Positions 33,618 to 34,352 of a DNA stretch of 64,000 bases are shown in pieces (position 1 is the first letter of the stretch; every line of letters begins with the position of its first letter). A program made the translations under genes and the position numbers. Origin of the DNA: Longimicrobiales bacterium (GTDB lineage: Bacteria; Gemmatimonadota; Gemmatimonadetes; Longimicrobiales; Gaopeijiaceae). The DNA lies in contig JAQWPM010000022.1 of assembly GCA_029245345.1 (NCBI GenBank), forward strand, positions 1 through 64,000. Reading direction: 5' to 3'. The notes under the pieces were generated by a model. The model saw only the letters and a list, made by a program, of their open reading frames with translations. It searched no databases and was not told the origin of the DNA.

Positions 33618-33689
33618 AGACGTCCGGATAGATTCGGAAAACGCTCGCTCGCCGGCCGGATGGCCACACCCCCGTCGCCCAATGACTCC

Positions 33690-34352
33690 ATGACCGACCC
33701 GACCTCTACCTCACCCGTCGGCTCAGCCCCCGAGATCTTCCAGGTGTTCACCGACTTCGTGTGACCATGGTGCTACTTGAGCGCCGGGCGCGTTCGAAAG
33801 CTTCAGGCCGAATATGAGATCCAGCCGGCTTATACCTACTTCCCCCTGCATCCGGACACGCCAAAAACGGGTCGTTCGCTCGCAGATCTCTTCAAGGGGC
33901 AAGAGGCCGTGTTCGAAGACATGCGAAAGCGTCTGGTCGAGTTGATTGCGGCCGAAGGGCTCCCGTACGGGGACAGGACCCATACGTACAACAGCCGTCT
34001 AGCCCAAGAGTTAGCCGCATGGGGGGATAGCCTTGGTGCAACGGATGCCCTCCATGACGCGTTGTTTCGGGCCTACTTCGTCGACGACCTCAATCTGGCC
34101 GAATCGGACGTCCTAGTCGCTGCTGCGGAGTCGGCCGGGCTGGACCCAGGTAAGGCCCGCGCGGTTGTGGAGGAGCGCCGTTTCAAAGAGACGATCGACG
34201 CCCATTGGCAGGCAGCGAGACAGACTGGAGTGACGGGCGTTCCGACCTTTGTGGCCGCCGGCGCCGGTGTCGTCGGAGCACAACCCTACGAAGTACTCGA
34301 ACTCCTGATGGAGCGGGTTGGCGTGCCTCGACGCGGTACCGCGTCCCTCTGA
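33690..34352 (+). CDS. DsbA/FrnE-family thiol-disulfide oxidoreductase with in-frame UGA (putative selenoprotein)
   Basis: Reading through one TGA at 33762-33764 gives 220 residues of a FrnE-like DsbA family member. The sequence around it is FQVFTDFV-TGA-PWCYLSAG: the family motif at this place is DFVCPWCYLG, so the TGA replaces precisely the first, nucleophilic Cys of CxxC. The following 195 codons are free of stops and carry family features (AYTYFPLHPDTPKTG, HTYNSRLAQELAAWG, DALFRAYFVDDLNLAESDVL, ARQTGVTGVPTFVA with the cis-proline loop). Selenocysteine at codon 25 is my preferred reading, supported by a stem-loop directly downstream. A plain nonsense mutation is the alternative. No sel genes lie in the window. 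Start at 33690 is chosen by frame and distance; 33660 is possible. Confidence 0.65.
33762..33798 (+). promoter_or_regulatory. Candidate bacterial SECIS element after the UGA
   Basis: Starting 17 bases after the TGA, GCGC and GCGC form a perfect stem around the three-base loop CGG, with an irregular lower extension (CTTGA pairing with parts of GTTCGAAAG). The loop is 21-23 bases downstream of the UGA and has a G at its second position. Both agree with the known bacterial SECIS rules (loop about 16-37 bases downstream, a G in the first two loop positions). Folding was judged by eye. Confidence 0.45.

Follow-up and report, generated by a model that had tools for sequence, protein, structure and literature searches.

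Is the TGA that interrupts a DsbA-like frame in a Gemmatimonadota genome a stop, or is it read as selenocysteine (Sec) in a redox active site? The locus lies in the window, which is the whole stretch of 64,000 nucleotides analysed here (Longimicrobiales bacterium, contig JAQWPM010000022.1). In the frame opening at ATG 33690 (Table 1), codon 25 is TGA and replaces the first Cys of CPWC, with FTDFV-TGA-PWCYLSAGR as its local context; the original prediction had placed it exactly at this redox-active residue, and had also rightly described 195 open codons downstream, this being the number of sense codons up to the final TGA, with no further in-frame stop. The read-through protein is MTDPTSTSPVGSAPEIFQVFTDFV-U-PWCYLSAGR..., and the standard ORF listing gives 33777-34352 only (TTG start, 191 aa). 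The start at 33690 is favoured over the in-frame ATG at 33660 because the same-genus homologue (L103) has an in-frame stop just 5' of the aligned ATG.

Table 1. Features of the predicted selenoprotein gene, in window positions.
Feature	Position	Strand	Remarks
DsbA/FrnE-like selenoprotein CDS (predicted)	33690..34352	+	220 aa; ATG 33690, stop TGA 34350-34352
In-frame UGA, predicted Sec25, residue 1 of the UPWC active site	33762..33764	+	
Cys28, predicted resolving residue	33771..33773	+	column invariant in alignment A1
bSECIS hairpin (predicted)	33777..33797	+	full stems in 51/54 Sec loci; loop CGGGC 33785-33789
Val184-Pro185-Thr186 (within TGVPTF)	34239..34247	+	V184 and P185 invariant in alignment A1

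As for the identity of the product, the PF01323 DSBA profile matches the read-through protein with 112 bits (3.8e-32; cut-off 25.6), which makes it the best DSBA match in the whole genome, and no NCBIfam equivalog scored above its cut-off for it. The motif UPWC, residues 25-28, forms a UxxC at the DsbA active site, with Cys28 as the sole Cys codon of the 220-residue frame; the VPT segment 184-186 adjoins the active site and corresponds to the loop that typically carries a cis-Pro in thioredoxin folds. Promoter and terminator patterns were not found at the gene, a negative that means little beyond sigma-70 models, and plasmid records gave no match. When the window was scanned by codon bias for further TGA-interrupted frames, none emerged whose surroundings resembled a plausible active site.

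Of the decoding machinery, all four components whose search had been proposed are encoded in the genome (G000; 30 contigs, 3.79 Mb, 98% complete): selA (548.8 bits), selB (above the curated cut-off, 335 bits over the frame, with the C-terminal domain in the same frame), tRNA-Sec with a UCA anticodon (Rfam, 65 bits; ARAGORN, 94 bases) and selD (L133, 376 bits). The selD frame contains an in-frame TGA of its own, in HGAG-U-ACKLG, at what we take to be the catalytic Cys/Sec position of SelD; SelD is thus itself a predicted selenoprotein, and Sec is very probably used in one or more further genes of this lineage.

Across several phyla, 54 homologous loci share the TGA at this codon, and the other homologues have TGC or TGT there, so that the alignment at codon 25 gives Sec or Cys, as the proposed check had envisaged. 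The TGA is kept in the closest relative, the same-genus genome G001 (72% identity over the alignment), in the same-family G049 (64%) and in the same-class G273 and G312 (∼54%), and it is also found in MAGs of Pseudomonadota, Planctomycetota, Rokubacteria and desulfobacterial groups; a close form of the gene is present in only 5 of the 395 Gemmatimonadota genomes sampled. TGA codons in two other genomes, G088 and G083 (L155 and L156), were rejected as Sec, for they lie upstream of the conserved domain and the active-site TGC-type Cys is kept.

The folded stem after the UGA has 8 bp (33777-33784/33790-33797), the family-conserved part being the inner six pairs (33779-33784/33790-33795), and its pentaloop CGGGC begins 20 nt after the UGA. 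It satisfies the published bSECIS rules, which ask for a loop of 3-9 nt, a stem of 4-16 bp, a distance of 16-37 nt from the UGA, a G in the first two loop positions and an MFE of at most -7.5 (PMC13188914): the loop has 5 nt with G second, and the MFE is -15.7. The original prediction had described the element as GCGC-CGG-GCGC with a three-base loop; a stem-loop that fits the rules is present there, but the triloop register is an alternative fold, and the register conserved in the family is that of the CGGGC pentaloop. Its use of this single sequence as evidence for a SECIS fared less well, because 1161 of the 1911 TGA triplets of the window (61%) precede a rule-fitting stem-loop, 18% with 6 bp or more, and an argument of this kind weighs little.

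The weight comes instead from the homologues. All six stem pairs form in 51 of the 54 Sec loci, and in every one of the 54 a G stands within the first two positions of the loop, which is CGTGC or CGGGC in most of them. Two-sided exchanges occur at pairs 1, 2, 4 and 5 (C-G/G-C, A-T/G-C, T-A/C-G and A-T/G-C, respectively), the closing C-G pair is invariant, and no locus retains a full stem when one arm is shifted by 1-3 nt. Of the 13 close Cys homologues none has the stem; among Cys homologues overall, 2 of 50 do. When synonymous codons were redrawn from the usage of the genes themselves, 0.1 full stems were expected among the 54 loci, with a maximum of 2 in 300 simulations, against the 51 observed; therefore, protein constraint does not account for the hairpin. 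The stem-loop alone does not exceed chance, but the joint retention of TGA and hairpin in the homologues goes far beyond it.

These data bear directly on whether reassignment or a suppressor tRNA could make the UGA a codon for Trp, Cys or Gly, or whether it is passed by low-level readthrough. A frame that stays open through the TGA is what any decoding would yield; nevertheless, a reading other than Sec is very improbable, as the genome has a dedicated tRNA-Sec (UCA) with selA, selB and selD, the UGA aligns with Cys only, the SECIS-type hairpin covaries only in TGA members, and the stop of the gene is also TGA. Of vanishingly small probability is that the locus is a pseudogene or a sequencing or assembly error, with the TGA as a nonsense mutation or a miscalled TGC or TGT. 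A lone TGA in one MAG, whose sequence is not error-free, would permit it, yet the same codon is TGA in 54 loci of unrelated assemblies, and the window frame has no other in-frame stop. Moreover, the frame 3' of the UGA is under purifying selection, judging from its comparison with the same-genus homologue (dN 0.18; dS 0.99, near saturation; dN/dS ∼0.18), which also bears out the conservation that had been claimed for it; this explanation is refuted because TGA and hairpin are conserved together across phyla. Finally, a functional product that begins 3' of the UGA (TTG 33777, 191 aa), with the 5' part non-coding, is highly improbable in spite of agreeing exactly with the ORF listing, since the UxxC active site and the first beta strand would both be missing from it, protein-level conservation extends to the stretch 5' of the UGA in TGA and Cys homologues alike (D22 invariant, FTDFV), and strand E15-21 is predicted to be part of the modelled fold.

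The UGA thus almost certainly codes for Sec in the redox active site. Each check by computation that had been suggested gave a favourable answer, and four independent lines of evidence, all computed, support the original proposal of a probable selenoprotein: the machinery genes, the TGA in 54 loci, the covarying hairpin and purifying selection. We hold with great confidence that the gene encodes a putative cytoplasmic DsbA/FrnE-like thiol-disulfide oxidoreductase, with Sec25 as nucleophile and with Sec insertion directed by SelB and the hairpin.

The AlphaFold model of the protein (pLDDT 93.7, pTM 0.88) has FrnE of Deinococcus radiodurans (DR_0659; PDB 5cnw, 5coh, 5cp1) as its best structural match (5coh, TM 0.83, 29% identity), followed by SCO1869, a putative DsbA oxidoreductase of Streptomyces coelicolor (3gl5, TM 0.81, 29% identity), a relative in fold and sequence to which its record assigns no function. 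The window protein shares with DrFrnE the DsbA-type fold and the CPWC-type active site; it differs in having Sec for the first Cys, and in the absence of the C-terminal CxxxxC motif, no Cys codon occurring beyond Cys28. DrFrnE has been proposed to be a disulfide reductase whose CxxxxC motif helps to regenerate the active site, and the FrnE subfamily is predicted to be cytoplasmic (PMC8945050). On reading the sequence by eye, not with a predictor, no hydrophobic signal was seen at the N-terminus of the window protein, which is most likely a cytoplasmic disulfide reductase or an oxidant-removing enzyme.

We infer the following mechanism, from Sec insertion itself to location, redox direction, substrate and reductant. 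SelA and SelD would supply the Sec-tRNA, and at the UGA, SelB carrying Sec-tRNA-Sec would bind the hairpin and insert Sec. The Sec25 selenolate would then attack a substrate disulfide or a peroxide-type oxidant, and Cys28 would resolve the Sec25 intermediate. Because Cys28 is the only Cys of the protein, regeneration of the Sec25/Cys28 pair must come from outside, probably from a thiol system such as thioredoxin or a low-molecular-weight thiol. The gene neighbours differ in G001 and G049, with no conserved operon partner, and the neighbourhood therefore hints at nothing on the substrate.

DsbA-like selenoproteins with a UxxC motif were described in 2005 in nine Sargasso Sea sequences (COG2761; PMC1088965), appeared as 'DsbA 1' in the GOS data in 2008 (PMC2398784), and were counted as 41 and 45 in the table of a 2016 survey (PMC5029168); a 2026 review catalogues them as 'DsbA-like protein form 1', PF01323 (PMC13188914). 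The window protein is placed in this family, whose published members include AACY01178397 and NIP15863.1, by domain, motif and COG: it shares PF01323, a UxxC with Sec first and a bSECIS just after the UGA, and, like the family, it has relatives in many environmental MAGs. It is a further member of a family known since 2005 from many phyla, not new in kind. The original prediction had called such a protein, foreseen in marine metagenomes, notable in this lineage; the family is indeed known, but the case is less exceptional than was implied. What differs from the published members is the host, Gemmatimonadota, a phylum that the main texts of the selenoproteome papers searched do not name, and one that seems to have been little noticed as a Sec-decoding lineage; with respect to that main-text record, it is added to the Sec-decoding bacteria. 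In practical terms, gene callers will annotate a 191-residue fragment without the active site, and the family hairpin, with four covarying pairs, an invariant closing C-G and a G-containing pentaloop, is clean enough to serve as a gene detector.

Sec forms come together in the protein tree, with 6 changes where shuffles give 35. Gemmatimonadota sequences from two families (f1 and f6) group at 91/92, just under the starred threshold, and sit inside a Sec clade that also holds several Cys lineages, a topology that suggests repeated Sec-to-Cys replacement within the clade. Such replacements can be traced in one enzyme because the Cys forms are nested inside the Sec clade; we infer the direction of each Sec/Cys change, since several deep branches of the tree are open. 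Five loci in alphaproteobacterial MAGs (L028, L036, L038, L041 and L081) carry Cys in the motif CPWCYLGD and are nested among Sec forms; there the SECIS-coding residues S-T/A have become G-D, as expected if the hairpin is no longer needed.

As for the Sec trait in the phylum, a tRNA-Sec match above 60 bits was found in 57 of 98 sampled relatives; family f3, although represented by many genomes in this sample, has one in just two of them, which suggests loss of the trait in that family. Among the Gemmatimonadota genomes with a TGA-containing DsbA that were checked, which include one fragment (G038) and one uncertain case (G076), selB was above its cut-off in all seven and tRNA-Sec was present in six, the exception being G038, which is 76% complete. 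That Sec decoding is common but unreported in Gemmatimonadota, and that DsbA-like proteins there acquired Sec more than once, is a tentative reading that we consider rather doubtful; it sets the family with the CGKGC hairpin beside a separate protein, L108, from another family of the order (G076).

L108 (about 2100-1504, minus strand) is a different DsbA-like protein (32% identity) whose TGA, in YSDFV-TGA-PFCF, is identically placed; its genome has tRNA-Sec and selB. The family hairpin is absent from L108, and the protein groups with Chloroflexota Cys proteins; for these reasons it may represent a separate Cys-to-Sec change, and, having no CGKGC hairpin, it may use another SECIS type. A further divergent DsbA-like protein (L142 in G348, ∼34%) has a TGA in DYI-TGA-PFCY, followed by a hairpin of a perfect six pairs with the loop CGTGA, despite its GGGCGC/GCGTCC arms.
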